Below the pieces are notes generated by a model. That model was not told the origin of the DNA. It did not search any database and saw only the letters and a program-made list of their open reading frames with translations. Below are positions 9,815-16,542 of a stretch of 64,000 nucleotides of DNA, in pieces. Source of the stretch: an uncultured Oscillospiraceae bacterium (GTDB lineage Bacteria > Bacillota > Clostridia > Oscillospirales > Acutalibacteraceae). The position numbers and the translations under genes were made by a program. Location of the stretch: the NCBI GenBank assembly GCA_949289045.1, contig CASEMN010000001.1, forward strand, positions 372,001 through 436,000, read 5' to 3'. Position 1 is the stretch's first letter, and each line of letters opens with the position of its first letter.

Positions 9815-9845
9815 TGTAACGTAAAAAAGGCAGGTGAAAAACGTT

Positions 9846-10283
9846 ATGGAGCAAACCCACAGTCTTTCCGGAGACGTTATTAAACAGCTTAGGACATGTG
9901 GACACTTTTTATATTTCAGAATGGGCGGAAAAATAGGCAGAAGAAGAATATTAGTGGTTTTGGAAAAGCACCATGAACTTTTACAGAAAGAACTTCAGGA
10001 GATTCTTGAGGTGCAGTCTGGCTCATTAAGTGAAATTATTATTAAAATGGAAAATGACGGATTAATCGAAAAAGCCAAGAGCGAAAGAGATGGTCGGCAT
10101 CTTGTGTTGCGTTTAACCGAAAAAGGCTTAAAAGAAGCCAAAATCGCAAGAAGCGAACATGATAAGCATGTTGAAGAGCTTATGTCGTGCCTCGCCGAAA
10201 ATGAAAAACAAGAACTTTATAATTTACTTTCTAAAATATTGCTGCATTGGAAAGACATAGAAAAACAAATAGATTTCAGGTGA
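9846..10283 (+). CDS. MarR-family transcriptional regulator
   Basis: A 145-aa winged-helix dimeric regulator. The recognition-helix region is QKELQEILEVQSGSLSEIIIKMENDGLIEK. The wing contains ERDGRHLVLRLTEKG, with the D/R pair typical of MarR. Its dimerisation helices are at both ends. The ATG at 9846 follows AGGTG; a GTG at 9834 overlaps the ribosome site. It lies 89 bases ahead of the two ABC exporter genes and is probably their repressor, relieved by a small ligand or substrate of the exporter. The ligand is unknown. Confidence 0.9.
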   Translation: MEQTHSLSGDVIKQLRTCGHFLYFRMGGKIGRRRILVVLEKHHELLQKELQEILEVQSGSLSEIIIKMENDGLIEKAKSERDGRHLVLRLTEKGLKEAKIARSEHDKHVEELMSCLAENEKQELYNLLSKILLHWKDIEKQIDFR

Positions 10284-10372
10284 TTATCTTAATGTAACTC
10301 AACAAAAAGATATTAAAATACTTCGCTTGTTAAAAATTTAAATATTAATTATTTTGAAAGGAAGGATAAAAC

Positions 10373-12118
10373 ATGATAAGCGCTTTATTAAAAAGTTTGC
10401 GCGAGTACAAAAAGACAACAATTATAACACCGCTGCTTGTTGTAATGGAAGTTGTCATGGAATGTATAATTCCGTTTATCATCGCCAACCTTGTAAACCA
10501 GATTAAAGCTGGCTGTGAACTTTCAGTAATTATCAAATACGGTGTAGTGCTGATAGTTATGGCTAGTCTTTCTCTTTTCTTTGGTGCATGGGCAGGTTCC
10601 ACCTGTTCTACTGCATCGTGCGGTTTTGCAAAAAATCTGCGTCATGATATGTTTTACGCAATTCAGAAGTATTCATTCGAAAACATTGACAAATTTCTCA
10701 CCTCGTCACTGGTTACTCGTATGACAACGGATATCACAAACGTACAAAATGCGTTTATGATGGTTATACGTACCGCAATCCGCGCTCCATTAATGCTCAT
10801 TTTTGCTTTTACAATGGCATTTATCATGGGAGGCAAAATGGCAACAATCTTTTTGATTGTATTGCCGATTTTAGGAATAGGTCTTTCAATAATCATCTAT
10901 AAATCTATTCCTCTTTTTAAAAGGGTTTTCAAAAAATATGATAACCTTAACAGTTCCATTCAGGAAAACATAAAAGCTATGCGTGTCGTAAAATCATTTG
11001 TAAGAGAAGACTACGAACAGGAAAAATTCAATTATGCCGCAGAAGACGTATGCCGTGATTTTACAAAGGCAGAGAGAATCCTGGCCCTTAATAACCCTTT
11101 AATGCAGTTTTGCATATATACAGTTATGGTATTTGTTCTTTCATTCGGCTCATATACAATTATAACCTCACGAGGCATTGATCTAGACGTAGGTCAGTTC
11201 TCAGCTCTTCTTACTTACAGCTTTATGATGCTCATGAGCCTTATGATGCTTTCAATGGTGTTTGTTATGATCACTATGGCCGGAGAATCAAGCAAACGTA
11301 TTGCAGAAGTTTTGGCTGAAAAAAGCACTCTTACAAATCCTGAAAATCCTGTTCATGAAGTAGCGGACGGCTCAATATCCTTTGAAAACGTCAGCTTTAA
11401 ATATTCAAAAACAGCTAAAAGAATGGCGCTTTCAGACATTAACTTACAGATTAAATCAGGCGAAACCATCGGAATTATCGGCGGAACAGGTTCCTCTAAA
11501 TCTTCACTTGTTCAGCTTATTTCACGTCTTTACGACGCCACGGAAGGTGTTGTAAAAGTCGGCGGTATAGATGTAAGAGATTACGATATTGAATCCCTTA
11601 GAAATCAGGTTGCAGTTGTACTGCAGAAAAACATTCTGTTCTCAGGAACGATTAAAGAAAACCTGCGCTGGGGAAATAAAGAAGCCACAGACGAAGAGAT
11701 GATCCACGCCTGCAAGCTCGCCTGTGCAGACGAATTTATTTCTCAGTTCCCGCAAGGATATGATACATACATAGAACAAGGCGGTGCCAATGTTTCCGGC
11801 GGACAAAAACAACGTTTGTGCATAGCAAGAGCACTTCTTAAAAAGCCTAAAATACTCATTTTGGACGACTCCACCAGCGCCGTTGACACAAGAACCGACG
11901 CAAACATCAGAAAGGCTATGCGTGAATACATTCCCGAAACAACAAAAATTATAATCGCTCAGCGTACAGCTTCGGTAGAAGACGCCGACAGAATTATAGT
12001 TATGGATAAGGGAACTATAAACGCAATCGGCACACATTCCGAATTACTGGCCAAAAATGAAATTTATCGTGAAATTTATACATCTCAGAATAAGGCAGGT
12101 GATCAGCTTGAAGACTAA
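10373..12118 (+). CDS. ABC exporter half-transporter with degenerate ATPase site
   Basis: A 581-aa fused exporter with about six membrane helices in residues 1-310 and an ATPase domain from ~335. Walker A is GGTGSSKS (370-377, with Ser where the P-loop normally has Gly), the Q-loop Gln is 418, the signature is VSGGQ (474-478) and the Walker B Asp is 498. The catalytic Glu is replaced by D499 and the switch His by Q530, the pattern of the non-hydrolysing half of heterodimeric exporters such as TM287/288 and BmrCD. AAAGGAAGG precedes the ATG. The partner gene overlaps its 3' end. It likely exports drugs, peptides or lipids; the substrate is unknown. Confidence 0.92.
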   Translation: MISALLKSLREYKKTTIITPLLVVMEVVMECIIPFIIANLVNQIKAGCELSVIIKYGVVLIVMASLSLFFGAWAGSTCSTASCGFAKNLRHDMFYAIQKYSFENIDKFLTSSLVTRMTTDITNVQNAFMMVIRTAIRAPLMLIFAFTMAFIMGGKMATIFLIVLPILGIGLSIIIYKSIPLFKRVFKKYDNLNSSIQENIKAMRVVKSFVREDYEQEKFNYAAEDVCRDFTKAERILALNNPLMQFCIYTVMVFVLSFGSYTIITSRGIDLDVGQFSALLTYSFMMLMSLMMLSMVFVMITMAGESSKRIAEVLAEKSTLTNPENPVHEVADGSISFENVSFKYSKTAKRMALSDINLQIKSGETIGIIGGTGSSKSSLVQLISRLYDATEGVVKVGGIDVRDYDIESLRNQVAVVLQKNILFSGTIKENLRWGNKEATDEEMIHACKLACADEFISQFPQGYDTYIEQGGANVSGGQKQRLCIARALLKKPKILILDDSTSAVDTRTDANIRKAMREYIPETTKIIIAQRTASVEDADRIIVMDKGTINAIGTHSELLAKNEIYREIYTSQNKAGDQLED

Positions 12119-14003
12119 AGTAAGACAGAGTAAAAAAGGCACTGTAGGACGACTTCTTAAAACAATGTTCAGTTTCTATCCGGTACTTTTACCTATAACA
12201 GTTGCCTGTATAGTATTTAACGCTATTGTAAGTTCAATCCCCTCTGTTTTCATGCAGAATATCATTTCAATAGTTGAAAGCAGCTGGCAAAGCGGAGACT
12301 GGAACGGCGTAAAGTCAAAAATACTGACATTTGTATGTATTCTTGCAGGATTCTATATTTTATCCTTAATTTCCGGATTTATATTTAACCAGTTGATGGC
12401 AGTAATAACTCAGGGAACCTTAAAAAAGATGCGCGAAAAAATGTTTGGCGGTATGCAGCGTCTTCCTATCAAATATTTTGATACTAACAACCACGGCGAT
12501 ATAATGAGCCATTATACAAACGATATAGATACTCTTCGCCAGTTGATTTCACAAAGTTTCCCTCAGCTTCTTGTTTCCGCTATAACAGTTACCACCGTTT
12601 TCTGCATTATGGTCTACTATTGCCTTTGGCTTACTCTCGTTGTAATCCTTGGCGTTGCAATAATGTTTTATCTTATAAAGAAAATAGGTGGAAACTCCGC
12701 AAAATATTTCTTCCGTCAGCAGGCTGCACTTGGTACTGTTGAAGGATTTGTAGAAGAGATGATGAATGGTCAGAAAGTTATAAAGGTTTTCTGCCACGAG
12801 GAAGAAAGCGGAAAAGATTTCGATAAACTTAACGAAAAACTTTTTAAGGAATCTGAAAGAGCAAACAAATACGCAAATATTCTTGGCCCCATACTTAATA
12901 ATATAGGAAATGTTTTATATGTTGTAGTGGCCATTGTAGGCGGTATACTTCTTGTTTCAAAAGTGCCGAATGTCAGTGTTTCAGGTCTTGCGATCAGTAT
13001 AAGCATAGTTGTACCTTTCCTCAATATGACAAAACAGTTTGCAGGAAATATTGGACAAGTTTCACATCAGGTAAACGCTGTTGTTATGGGTCTTGCAGGA
13101 GCTGAGCGTATTTTTGAGCTTGCCGATGAAAAACCTGAACAGGACGAAGGATATGTTACTCTGGTAAATGCAAAAGAAGAAAACGGACAACTTGTTGAAT
13201 GCGCTGAACGTACAAAGACTTGGGCTTGGAAGCATCCCCACAGCGATGGCACTGTTACATATACAAAACTTATGGGTGACGTTCGTCTCTTCGATGTTGA
13301 TTTCGAATATGAAGAGGGCAAACCGGTTCTTCATAACATAACTTTGTATGCAAAACCTGGACAAAAAGTTGCTTTTGTCGGCGCAACGGGAGCAGGCAAA
13401 ACTACTATCACCAACCTTCTTAACAGATTCTATGACATAGCAGACGGTAAAATCAGATACGACGATATAAATATCAATAAAATTAAGAAGAGCGATCTTC
13501 GCCGCTCACTTGGCATAGTTCTTCAGGATACTAACCTTTTTACCGGAACGGTAATGGACAACATTCGTTACGGAAAGCTTGATGCATCAGATGAAGAGTG
13601 CATTGCTGCGGCCAAACTTGTAGGTGCAGACGATTTCATAACTCGCCTTCCTCAGGGTTATGACACTCCCCTCACCGGCAACGGCGCCAATCTTTCTCAG
13701 GGCCAGCGTCAGCTCCTTTCTATTGCCCGTGCCGCTGTTGCTGATCCTCCCGTTATGATTCTTGACGAGGCAACCTCATCAATTGATACACGAACCGAAG
13801 CCATTGTTCAGAGAGGTATGGATGCACTTATGGAGGGAAGAACGGTTTTCGTTATTGCTCACCGTCTTTCCACTGTAAAAAATTCAGACGTTATCATCGT
13901 ACTTGACCACGGTAGGATTATTGAAAGAGGTACTCACGACGATCTGCTTAAAGAAAAAGGTCAGTACTATCAGCTTTACACAGGAGCTTTCGAGCTTGAG
14001 TAA
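12108..14003 (+). CDS. ABC exporter half-transporter, catalytically competent partner
   Basis: A 631-aa exporter half with six membrane helices and a canonical ATPase: Walker A GATGAGKT (425-432), signature LSQGQ (529-533), Walker B Asp 553, catalytic Glu 554 and switch His 585 in AHRLST. A charged insertion at ~345-385 precedes the ATPase domain. The start is taken as the TTG at 12108 because AGGTGA lies 5 bases upstream. It overlaps the previous gene by 11 bases, which indicates translational coupling and fits an obligate heterodimer. An ATG at 12057, well inside the previous gene, would add 17 unlikely residues. Confidence 0.92.
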   Translation: MKTKVRQSKKGTVGRLLKTMFSFYPVLLPITVACIVFNAIVSSIPSVFMQNIISIVESSWQSGDWNGVKSKILTFVCILAGFYILSLISGFIFNQLMAVITQGTLKKMREKMFGGMQRLPIKYFDTNNHGDIMSHYTNDIDTLRQLISQSFPQLLVSAITVTTVFCIMVYYCLWLTLVVILGVAIMFYLIKKIGGNSAKYFFRQQAALGTVEGFVEEMMNGQKVIKVFCHEEESGKDFDKLNEKLFKESERANKYANILGPILNNIGNVLYVVVAIVGGILLVSKVPNVSVSGLAISISIVVPFLNMTKQFAGNIGQVSHQVNAVVMGLAGAERIFELADEKPEQDEGYVTLVNAKEENGQLVECAERTKTWAWKHPHSDGTVTYTKLMGDVRLFDVDFEYEEGKPVLHNITLYAKPGQKVAFVGATGAGKTTITNLLNRFYDIADGKIRYDDININKIKKSDLRRSLGIVLQDTNLFTGTVMDNIRYGKLDASDEECIAAAKLVGADDFITRLPQGYDTPLTGNGANLSQGQRQLLSIARAAVADPPVMILDEATSSIDTRTEAIVQRGMDALMEGRTVFVIAHRLSTVKNSDVIIVLDHGRIIERGTHDDLLKEKGQYYQLYTGAFELE

Positions 14004-14075: not shown

Positions 14076-14103
14076 TTGACTTTTTTTAAAAAAGTTGTAT
14101 ACT
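14076..14103 (+). promoter_or_regulatory. Promoter of the hairpin-79aa-MATE operon
   Basis: TTGACT (14076-14081), a 16-bp spacer and TATACT (14098-14103). The predicted start at about 14110 places the following hairpin at the very 5' end of the transcript. Confidence 0.7.
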
Positions 14104-14109
14104 AATAGT

Positions 14110-14165
14110 ACAGCGTGTAGCAAAACTGCGTAAATCCAGTTGTTTGCTACACGCTTTTTATTTTT
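14110..14165 (+). ncRNA. Structured leader element, copy 1 (terminator-like, unclassified)
   Basis: A 13-bp perfect outer stem (14112-14124 with 14143-14155) begins AGCGTGTAGC. Above a 2-nt bulge is a 4-bp stem, and the apical region reads GCGTAAATCCAG (14128-14139). TTTTTATTTTT follows directly. It begins within about 2 bases of the predicted transcription start and lies 60 bases before the 79-aa gene, as an attenuator or riboswitch-like leader would. Copy 2 is at 14461. It resembles no RNA class I can name. Confidence 0.55.
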
Positions 14166-14214
14166 GGCGTCATTTTCTATGTATCACCTTTGACCGCCAG
14201 AAGGAGGTGAGCGA

Positions 14215-14454
14215 ATGAAACGGGTAAAAGCTGCCTGTATCTGCCAAACACTGCATTTTATGCTCAAAGAAGAACTTGGACATAATTATGCAGCTGAGCA
14301 GGTAAAAAAAGAAGTTGAGCACTATAAACAATCGCTCGACAGAAAGCATACACAGTATAAAATTGTAGAAGAGACTGTGCAGCCTGATGATTCAATTATT
14401 CTGAAAGTCATCAAACAATATAATCAGAGCCCTGTCGGTAATTATCTTAACTGA
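14215..14454 (+). CDS. Conserved small Clostridia protein, function unknown (79 aa)
   Basis: This short, charged, soluble protein has an N-terminal CICQTLHFMLKEEL stretch, a helical middle (EQVKKEVEHYKQSLDRK) and a beta-rich end (YKIVEETVQPDDSIILKVIKQYN). I recall similar ~80-aa proteins in Oscillospiraceae with no assigned role. AAGGAGGTGA sits 4-5 bases before the ATG, an unusually strong ribosome site. It lies between the two leader elements and ahead of the MATE exporter, so it may sense or assist the same export process. That link is inference from position only. Confidence 0.8.
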   Translation: MKRVKAACICQTLHFMLKEELGHNYAAEQVKKEVEHYKQSLDRKHTQYKIVEETVQPDDSIILKVIKQYNQSPVGNYLN

Positions 14455-14460
14455 CAGAAA

Positions 14461-14511
14461 AAATGCGTGTAGCGTAAAGCGTAAATCCAGCTTTCGCTGC
14501 ACGTATTTTTA
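14461..14511 (+). ncRNA. Structured leader element, copy 2 (terminator-like, unclassified)
   Basis: The outer stem 14461-14474 pairs with 14495-14508 (14 bp, two G-T). After a single-base bulge a 5-bp stem AAAGC/GCTTT carries the same GCGTAAATCCAG (14479-14490) as copy 1. The first arm also shares GCGTGTAGC with copy 1. ATTTTTATTTAT follows, then the MATE ribosome site. It starts 7 bases after the stop codon of the 79-aa gene. Confidence 0.55.
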
Positions 14512-14530: not shown

Positions 14531-15958
14531 TTGGAACAGAAAGCAAACACTTTTCTTGAAACAGAAAAAATCAGCAAACTTATGAGAAAATACTCAATTC
14601 CCTGTATAATTTCTCTTTTAGTAGCTGCTTTATATAATATCGTCGATCAAATTTTTATTGCCAACGCCGATTATCTGGGTTCCTATGGAAATGCGGCCAA
14701 CACAGTTGTTTTTCCGCTGACAGTTGTAGCTTTGGCTATTGCTGTTATGATCGGAGACGGCTGTTGTGCTTTTGTAAGTATTAGTCTTGGAGCAAATGAA
14801 AAAGAAAACGCACATAAAAGTATCGGAAACGCTGTTTTACTGTGCATAATTTCAAGTATAGTCTTAACAATACTGTACCTGATTTTTCAGGATCAAATAC
14901 TTACGATTTTCGGAGGCAAAGTAAACGAAGAAACTTTTAAATATTCAAAAGAATACTTTTTCTGGATAAGCCTTGGCATCCCCTTTTATATGTTCGGTCA
15001 AGCAGTAAATCCTATTATCCGTTCAGACGGAAGTCCTAAATTTGCTATGGTATCAACAGTTCTGGGAGCTTTGGCAAATCTTATACTCGATCCTATATTC
15101 ATTTTCGGTTTTAAATGGGGAATGACTGGTGCAGCTGTTGCAACGGTCATAGGACAAATCCTTACCGCTATTTTGTCTCTTTGGTATCTTTTACATATGA
15201 AAGCAGTAAAGCTAAATAAACAGAGCTTTAAAATTAAATACAAACTACTCGAAAAGTTTTTATCTTTAGGAATATGCAGCTTTTTATCCCAAATTTCGCT
15301 TGTTGCAGCAATGGCAGCAATTAACAATATGCTTCGTATATACGGTGCACGGGATATTATATTTGGTCAAGCTGAATATGCGCAAATTCCTATGGCGGTG
15401 GTGGGAATTGTAATGAAATTCTTTCAGATAGTTATTTCCATTGCGGTAGGAATGGCAGCCGGATGTATTCCGATAGCAGGATATAATATCGGAGCAGGTC
15501 ACAAAGACCGTGCAAAAAGTTTGTTTACACATTTAATTGTTGCTGAGGCTGCTGTCGGAGCTATTGCATTAATAATAGTTGAATTATTTCCAGTAAACCT
15601 CACTAATATCTTTGGTGCTTCACACGAAAGCGTTTATTACACCGAATTTGCAGTTAAATCTTTCCGGATTTATCTGTGCATGATTATCTTTGCATGTATA
15701 AATAAGGGAACCTTCATTTATCTTCAGGCCCTCGGTAAGGCTCTGGCATCCACTTTGATTTCCATGGTTCGTGAAGTTATTTTTGGCGTCGGATTTGCAA
15801 TTTTACTTCCTGCTTTCTTTGGACTTAATGGAGTTCTTTATTCAATGCCCGTATCTGATATTCTAACATTTATTATTTCTGTCATAGTTACAATAAGCAC
15901 TTATAAATGGTTAAGCTCAGGCAGAAATAAAATTAAAGTCAAGGAGGAAAAGCAATGA
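14531..15958 (+). CDS. MATE-family multidrug/metabolite efflux transporter
   Basis: A 475-aa protein with twelve predicted membrane helices and MATE-type repeats. The N-terminal half contains KYSIPCIISLLVAALYNIVDQIFI and the second half contains GICSFLSQISLVAAMAAINNML. It probably exports a cationic or aromatic compound in exchange for Na+ or H+. The start is a TTG at 14531, 8 bases after AGGAGG. It ends in an ATGA overlap with the cytidylate-kinase-like gene, so the two are translationally coupled. Expression may be gated by the leader hairpin just upstream. Confidence 0.92.
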   Translation: MEQKANTFLETEKISKLMRKYSIPCIISLLVAALYNIVDQIFIANADYLGSYGNAANTVVFPLTVVALAIAVMIGDGCCAFVSISLGANEKENAHKSIGNAVLLCIISSIVLTILYLIFQDQILTIFGGKVNEETFKYSKEYFFWISLGIPFYMFGQAVNPIIRSDGSPKFAMVSTVLGALANLILDPIFIFGFKWGMTGAAVATVIGQILTAILSLWYLLHMKAVKLNKQSFKIKYKLLEKFLSLGICSFLSQISLVAAMAAINNMLRIYGARDIIFGQAEYAQIPMAVVGIVMKFFQIVISIAVGMAAGCIPIAGYNIGAGHKDRAKSLFTHLIVAEAAVGAIALIIVELFPVNLTNIFGASHESVYYTEFAVKSFRIYLCMIIFACINKGTFIYLQALGKALASTLISMVREVIFGVGFAILLPAFFGLNGVLYSMPVSDILTFIISVIVTISTYKWLSSGRNKIKVKEEKQ

Positions 15959-16542
15959 GCAACAGAGTTATAACAATAAGCCGTGAATTTGGAAGCGGCG
16001 GAAGAACGATAGGTCGTTTAACAGCAGAAAAATTAGGTATCCCCTGCTACGATTCCGAGATTATTGAAAAAATAGCTGAAGCAAGCGGACTTACAAGCGA
16101 ATATATAGCAGACAGAGGAGAATATTCTCCTCATGGTAACTGGATAGCCAACGCTCTTTCTTCTGGACGCTCTTTTAACGGATATTCGGTTCAGGATTAT
16201 CTATGGAGCATTCAGAAAAAAGTTATTCTCAATCTTGCAGAAAAGGAATCATGTGTTATAGTCGGAAGGTGTGCTGACTATATTCTAAGCGATACAGCAA
16301 ACTGCCTAAAGGTTTTTATTCACGCTTCTCTCGAAAAGCGTGCCGAACGAATTGTAAAAGTTTACGGTGAAAGAGATGAGTCTCCACAAAAGAGGCTTCT
16401 CGAAAAAGATAAGCGACGTAAGTCATATTACCGTTTTTATACTGATCTCGAATGGGGTATAGCAGAAAACTACCATATTTCACTTGACAGTGGTGTTCTT
16501 GGAATAGAAAAATGTGCCGATTTGCTTACAGAATTATATTAG
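15955..16542 (+). CDS. Cytidylate kinase-like family protein
   Basis: A 195-aa P-loop protein of the cytidylate-kinase-like group. An N-terminal ITISREFGSGGRTIG forms the phosphate-binding loop, GIPCYDSEIIEKIAE follows, and a KRAERI/EKDKRRKSYYRFYTD region resembles the lid. These proteins are common beside transporters in Clostridia, but their substrate is not established; the housekeeping cytidylate kinase (Cmk) normally has different CMP-binding signatures. It starts by a 4-base ATGA overlap with the MATE gene and is last in the operon. Confidence 0.85.
   Translation: MSNRVITISREFGSGGRTIGRLTAEKLGIPCYDSEIIEKIAEASGLTSEYIADRGEYSPHGNWIANALSSGRSFNGYSVQDYLWSIQKKVILNLAEKESCVIVGRCADYILSDTANCLKVFIHASLEKRAERIVKVYGERDESPQKRLLEKDKRRKSYYRFYTDLEWGIAENYHISLDSGVLGIEKCADLLTELY

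Follow-up and report, generated by a model that had tools for sequence, protein, structure and literature searches.

The two hairpins that flank the first gene of an export operon in the window (the whole 64,000-nt stretch of DNA analysed in this work) are predicted to be copies of one small RNA switch, each of them probably a terminator-embedded antiterminator that is OFF by default. The basis of this reading in the sequence is a pair of mutually exclusive, covarying structures, together with the placement at a promoter, the U-tracts and the association with particular genes. The original prediction had proposed an attenuator at the promoter and a second one inside the operon, both responsive to a ligand or factor, and the comparative evidence appears to support every part of it.

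Copy 1 encompasses a hairpin at 14112-14155 and a T-rich tract that extends to 14165, and copy 2 a hairpin at 14461-14508 and a tract that extends to 14516, both on the forward strand, as are all features of the operon described below. Within the window the 12-mer GCGTAAATCCAG is present at 14128-14139 and 14479-14490 and nowhere else, the 5' arms of both copies contain GCGTGTAGC, and the stem positions that differ between the copies are still paired (T-A vs. T-G, ACTG/CAGT vs. AAAGC/GCTTT), all as originally described. Each element folds into a single hairpin (copy 1: -23.2 kcal/mol, z-score -6.2; copy 2: -28.6 kcal/mol, z-score -7.8; no shuffled sequence folds as well in either case), and the tracts reported at their ends are present as U-rich stretches directly on the 3' side. 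A simple consensus terminator scan lists neither copy, because its rules (loop of 3-8 nt, unbroken stem) do not fit longer, bulged hairpins. The genome (2.5 Mb, 98% complete) contains exactly one further occurrence of the 12-mer (three in all), which lies within a coding gene and forms no such hairpin, and a genome search with a covariance model built for the hairpin returned no strong matches other than copies 1 and 2; we therefore reject the possibility that the element is a scattered mobile repeat.

A sigma-70-like promoter (TTGACT-16-TATACT, 14076-14103) ends 8 nt upstream of copy 1, with the predicted start of transcription at ~14110-14112, which agrees with the proposed position of copy 1 at the start of the operon promoter. 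The first gene (14215-14454) encodes a 79-aa protein, highly conserved in Clostridia, with a predicted beta-alpha-beta-beta fold. Copy 2 is located, as claimed, between this gene and the gene of a MATE family efflux transporter (14531-15958, TTG start; PF01554, E-value 1e-31; TIGR00797, score over the cut-off), with no promoter box in front of it. The last gene (15955-16542) overlaps the end of the MATE gene and encodes a cytidylate-kinase-like protein (Cytidylate_kin2; PF13189, E-value 9e-51). The region 9834-14003, which ends just upstream of the operon promoter, encodes a MarR regulator (9834-10283) followed by two ABC half-exporters, the first of them at 10373-12118.

Homologues of the 79-aa gene were found at 173 loci in Clostridia, of which 80 were kept; the protein (MKRxKAACICQTLHF...) exhibits 61-79% identity across many members of this class (loci L017-L111). 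More than half of the 80 loci carry the hairpin at the promoter (core matched upstream in 48, the window included), and in 27 a second copy was matched between the 79-aa gene and its downstream neighbour, which is usually MATE. Isolates with both copies include Butyricicoccus faecihominis and Faecalicatena contorta. A -10 box with at least 5 of 6 matching positions precedes 95% of the homologous upstream copies, mostly at a distance of 8 nt (shuffled control: 15%), and only 4% of the intercistronic copies, which is the level of the control. The spacing places the beginning of copy 1 at the transcription start, with no space for a leader peptide, and the intercistronic copies, with no -10 box above the control, indicate that copy 2 is an internal checkpoint.

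The terminator hairpin is conserved as a structure. Among 54 of the hairpins at the 79-aa loci, 95.3% of the cells of the outer stem are paired (vs. 87.9% in shuffled alignments), with 54 double-sided changes (vs. 17.7) and compensatory substitutions at 6 of the 10 pairs; in the covariance model built for this hairpin (R1), copies 1 and 2 score 69.6 and 56.1 bits. At four loci (L138, L141, L142, L147), the 5' strand of the terminator is formed by the core GCGUAAGUCC, and the upstream CGWGURGC arm, left outside the terminator, is nonetheless conserved, which suggested that the arm and the core pair with each other. Across 178 distinct instances, the terminator captures the 5' arm in 134 (architecture A), the core in 41 (architecture B) and neither of them in 3.

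The structure predicted for the arm and the core is a 30-nt hairpin that is mutually exclusive with the terminator. With positions 1-10 assigned to AACGWGURGC and positions 25-38 to GCGUAANUCCRGUU, it comprises a helix P1 (1-38, 2-37, 3-36 and 4-34, with 35 bulged), an internal loop (5-6 and 30-33), a helix P2 (7-29, 8-28, 9-26 and 10-25, with 27 bulged) and a terminal loop of mostly 4-9 nt. In copy 1 the putative antiterminator or aptamer hairpin encompasses 14112-14141 (P1: 14112-14141, 14113-14140 (a G-U pair), 14114-14139 and 14115-14137; P2: 14118-14132, 14119-14131, 14120-14129 and 14121-14128; bulges 14130 and 14138; internal loop 14116-14117/14133-14136). Its counterpart in copy 2 encompasses 14464-14492 (P1: 14465-14491, 14466-14490 and 14467-14488, with a T-T opposition at 14464-14492; P2: 14470-14483, 14471-14482, 14472-14480 and 14473-14479). 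Both assignments are based on covariation, and the covariance model of the small hairpin (R2) assigns the copies 41.5 bits (in a search of their own genome) and 36.5 bits, respectively. A third, partial match at ~23271 of the window does not form P1. The 12-mer, originally described as a shared apical loop, is indeed present in both copies, but it appears to be more than a loop: on the comparative data, the conserved entity is the competing hairpin (antiterminator or aptamer) that the 12-mer is predicted to form with the 5' arm.

When mutual information was calculated for all pairs of conserved columns in 84 elements, with no structure assumed, pair 2-37 ranked first; among the top six pairs, compensatory Watson-Crick changes were otherwise found only at 3-36 and 10-25, and the remaining pairs involve neighbouring or non-pairing columns. 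Counted in full, the small-hairpin structure is 96.3% paired and reveals 39 double changes, vs. 11.3 in the shuffled control. The R2 matches from the genome search exhibit 96.2% paired cells (vs. 84.9% shuffled) and 76 double changes (vs. 18.6), in an alignment (A7) that was fitted to the structure of the model and is hence biased toward it, and with copies from within one genus being related, so that the counts overstate the number of independent events. At pair 2-37 these matches contain AU (34), UA (21), GC (13), GU (8) and CG (2). A model devoid of base pairs (R3), run on 295 genomes from a single order, many of which were additional to the earlier sample, reported matches in 47 genomes, and P1 and P2 hold in nearly all sequences fetched. 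In architecture B, where positions 1-3 (and 1-10 in all) lie outside the terminator, pair 2-37 is formed in 97% of the sequences (vs. 52% shuffled) and 3-36 in 97% (vs. 84%), with P1 combinations as different as AUC/GAU, GUU/AAC, AGU/ACU and ACC/GGA; this covariation of P1 cannot be explained by pairing in the terminator. The absence of covariation in homologues, which would have spoken against the original prediction, is thus contradicted for the terminator and for the small hairpin alike. The weakest pairs are R8-U28 and the closing A1-U38, which fail in ~9% and ~11% of cases. The unpaired residues G6, A30 and C33 are 99-100% conserved, and U32 and G27 ~96% conserved, a pattern that would be expected of a binding pocket.

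According to nearest-neighbour energies the small hairpin is not expected to be stable by itself, and in neither window copy does the 30-nt element adopt it as its minimum-energy fold. The mean energies for the 178 instances are -22.4 kcal/mol for the terminator and about +3.6 kcal/mol for the small hairpin; with a strong terminator opposed to an unstable competitor, OFF is the expected default unless the small hairpin is stabilised. We propose that the polymerase would start at copy 1 or within a base or two of it, and that the first 30 nt of the RNA would fold into the short bulged hairpin with P1, the conserved internal loop and P2. If this hairpin is not stabilised, the RNA would refold into the far stronger terminator hairpin with its trailing U residues, and the polymerase would stop short of the gene. 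Binding of a ligand or, less probably, of an RNA-binding protein to the small hairpin would keep the 5' strand of the terminator occupied and permit readthrough. Copy 1 would gate the whole operon (the 79-aa protein, MATE and the cytidylate-kinase-like protein), and copy 2 would gate MATE and the distal gene again, separately, so that the exporter would require two readthrough events. We infer that the switch is OFF by default and turned ON by a ligand or factor, and that the signal is a toxic compound or the stress that results from it.

The original prediction needs correction in that the element is not confined to the export operon of the window: it recurs in many genera before MATE, MFS, CarD, DUF2798-like, cytidylate-kinase-like and UvrA genes. 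In 391 sampled genomes of class Clostridia, the R1 search reported strong copies at loci with no 79-aa gene within 1.5 kb, located directly before MATE, MFS, CarD, UvrA and small membrane proteins that resemble DUF2798. R2 matches were found in 68 of these 391 genomes (51 of 223 genera), usually one per genome, and in 18 of 398 genomes sampled across the phylum, the weakest matches in both counts not all being real. The 60 R2 matches of at least 28 bits are followed by MATE (31), CarD (12), MFS (5), DUF2798-like (4), Cytidylate_kin2 (1), UvrA (1) and other genes (6), i.e. ~90% precede named families, as counted by reading the open reading frames, with Pfam checks on ten representatives; two of the three DUF2798-like proteins tested have no Pfam match and were assigned by resemblance. 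Two weaker matches precede ABC exporters, of which that at L231 shares 80% identity, over 581 residues, with the ABC exporter at 10373-12118 of the window. At L195 a homologous cytidylate-kinase-like gene directly follows the element. The families of the window's 79-aa, MATE, cytidylate-kinase-like and ABC exporter genes are therefore each found directly behind the element in some genome. Six R2 matches (L190, L191, L192, L219, L221, L232) were set aside as chance, as most of them are in apparently coding DNA or have no core or terminator.

Small CarD-family proteins are encoded directly behind the element at L179, L180, L196, L201, L206, L207, L210, L211, L213, L214, L217, L218, L224 and L229. 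This placement would link a family of RNA-polymerase-binding proteins to the same signal as the exporters. Closely paired elements, which resemble tandem riboswitches, were found at L249 (~78 nt apart), L120, L237, L244 and L247.

The closest described mechanism appears to be that of the HMP-PP (thiS) riboswitch, a terminator-embedded aptamer that acts as an ON switch by antitermination, with examples from Clostridium (PMC6478431). The element resembles it in having two mutually exclusive folds and an unusually conserved terminator loop, with the aptamer role being putative here, and appears to differ from it in the two terminator architectures, in the lack of any recognised thiamin gene behind the 60 R2 matches of at least 28 bits and in the lack of an Rfam match at the thresholds tried. 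The Guanidine-IV riboswitch and its Gd4v variant also precede MATE genes and act as terminator-based ON switches, with a pseudoknot linking two hairpins within ~95 nt (PMC7736828, PMC9788692). The element shares with them the use of a terminator and the downstream MATE genes (31 of the 60 matches); however, its conserved part is a single 30-nt hairpin that starts at +1, and it has no Rfam match to any guanidine class. The best sub-threshold Rfam match is the trpB motif (RF04312), which includes a similar-looking terminator stem (PMC11109978); the two copies score 25.7 and 17.9 bits (cut-off: 59) and the similarity derives from the generic terminator portion, hence we reject membership in this family. 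No family of Rfam 15 matches the element, and no hits at the gathering thresholds were found at the hairpin in 18 of the 79-aa loci and 19 further loci (37 altogether), in agreement with the original statement that this RNA class was not a known one. We found no description of the element in the literature covered, which comprised main texts and few subscription journals, and it may possibly be listed elsewhere, for example unnamed among the tabulated motifs of a large survey.

The general traits of riboswitches are present, namely a conserved structured leader before functionally related genes, mutually exclusive structures and a conserved unpaired pocket. We consider the chances about even that the element represents a new riboswitch class, in which a 30-nt aptamer that resides wholly within the terminator would directly sense a toxic compound or stress metabolite across Clostridia and switch on MATE, MFS and ABC exporters and CarD-type proteins, with the terminator capturing either of two strands. 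A small-molecule ligand is favoured over a protein (roughly an even chance for the former and a distinctly lower one for the latter), since we saw no gene of a regulator repeatedly adjacent to the element.

The protein-dependent alternative is possible, albeit rather doubtful: a specialised RNA-binding protein, itself a sensor of drug stress, would bind the small hairpin and act in trans on all copies. In the systems of BglG, SacY and LicT, the RNA antiterminator (RAT) is a bulged hairpin of ~30 nt that overlaps the 5' half of a terminator close to where the transcript begins. The layout of the element, with bulges and an internal loop in a 30-nt hairpin, is the same, and the diversity of the exporters behind it would fit a trans-acting regulon; its sequence, however, differs from what we take to be the RAT consensus, it is followed by exporter, CarD, DUF2798-like and other genes rather than by sugar operons, and no BglG-type PRD regulator, PTS or sugar genes were seen beside the window copies or behind the element. 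For mutually exclusive stem-loops compare PMC3369936. Besides the lack of a recurrent regulator gene among the neighbours seen, no homologue of the 79-aa protein is encoded in 21 of the 22 element-bearing genomes, and CarD as a candidate sensor yields a non-discriminating comparison, as CarD proteins occur in most genomes checked and the family also includes Mfd. The same 21 genomes lead us to reject the 79-aa protein as the general sensor and to regard it as a target. That it is an RNA-binding autoregulator of the twin hairpins we find hardly credible: it is small and highly conserved, with a basic N-terminus, and its gene is flanked by two copies in the window operon and in many homologues, but many homologues also have no upstream copy of the element. 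Autoregulation is therewith refuted as the general mechanism; a special role in the window operon is possible.

The copies all resemble intrinsic terminators, and might be conserved ones with no regulation, serving merely to lower expression or to insulate genes. This is improbable, given that such terminators need neither the conserved apical sequence nor the second covarying hairpin, that the 5' arm is conserved where the terminator leaves it unused, with P1 covarying in architecture B, and that the gene would be silent if termination at +1, immediately ahead of the ribosome site, were constitutive. Still harder to accept is that the inverted repeat at +1 acts as a DNA operator, to which a repressor would bind, for instance the MarR protein encoded upstream. 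The arms are palindromic at the promoter start and the MarR gene lies at 9834-10283, but the length between the arms varies, the 3' arm shifts between architectures A and B, the conservation covers G-U pairs and bulges, U-tracts follow, and the intercistronic copies have no promoter.

If the antiterminator reading is true, a widespread class of RNA switches (in ~1/6 of the sampled Clostridia genomes) would control multidrug exporters in bacteria many of which are probably gut commensals, and the identity of the inducer would reveal what these exporters normally remove. Such a tiny element, with its two natural terminator designs, would add to the rare examples of a terminator-embedded layout, and would join exporters, CarD-family proteins and the conserved 79-aa protein in one testable regulon.

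The 79-aa protein matches no Pfam or NCBIfam family, and sequence searches of PDB and PHROGs gave no useful result. Comparison of its predicted fold with the PDB revealed no significant match (Foldseek: best E-value 0.015; best VIA-align: Z 5.8, rmsd 4.3, 63 aligned), and no function was inferred from it. At L111 the 79-aa reading frame contains three internal stops, yet both hairpin copies are kept, which suggests that they still serve the exporter after decay of the small gene. Some homologues with no hairpin (L031, L038, L039, L041, L042, L061, L063, L064, L066, L067, L069-L071) have in common a different leader, located ~100 nt ahead of the 79-aa gene and conserved as TATCTCTATTCAGGCTC..GCCG.AAtAGG; it has no Rfam match in the three loci scanned and is possibly a second, unrelated regulatory RNA. 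The element is also found in IMG/VR contigs, two of which have the operon of the 79-aa gene and MATE and could represent bacterial DNA that was mis-binned. In three near-identical IMG/VR contigs classed as viral (L263, L266, L270) it precedes a small gene (MADKYGIRIIHDSGPVGWVAGRDCNILLFKTRLEAEKALKQMKSDP...).
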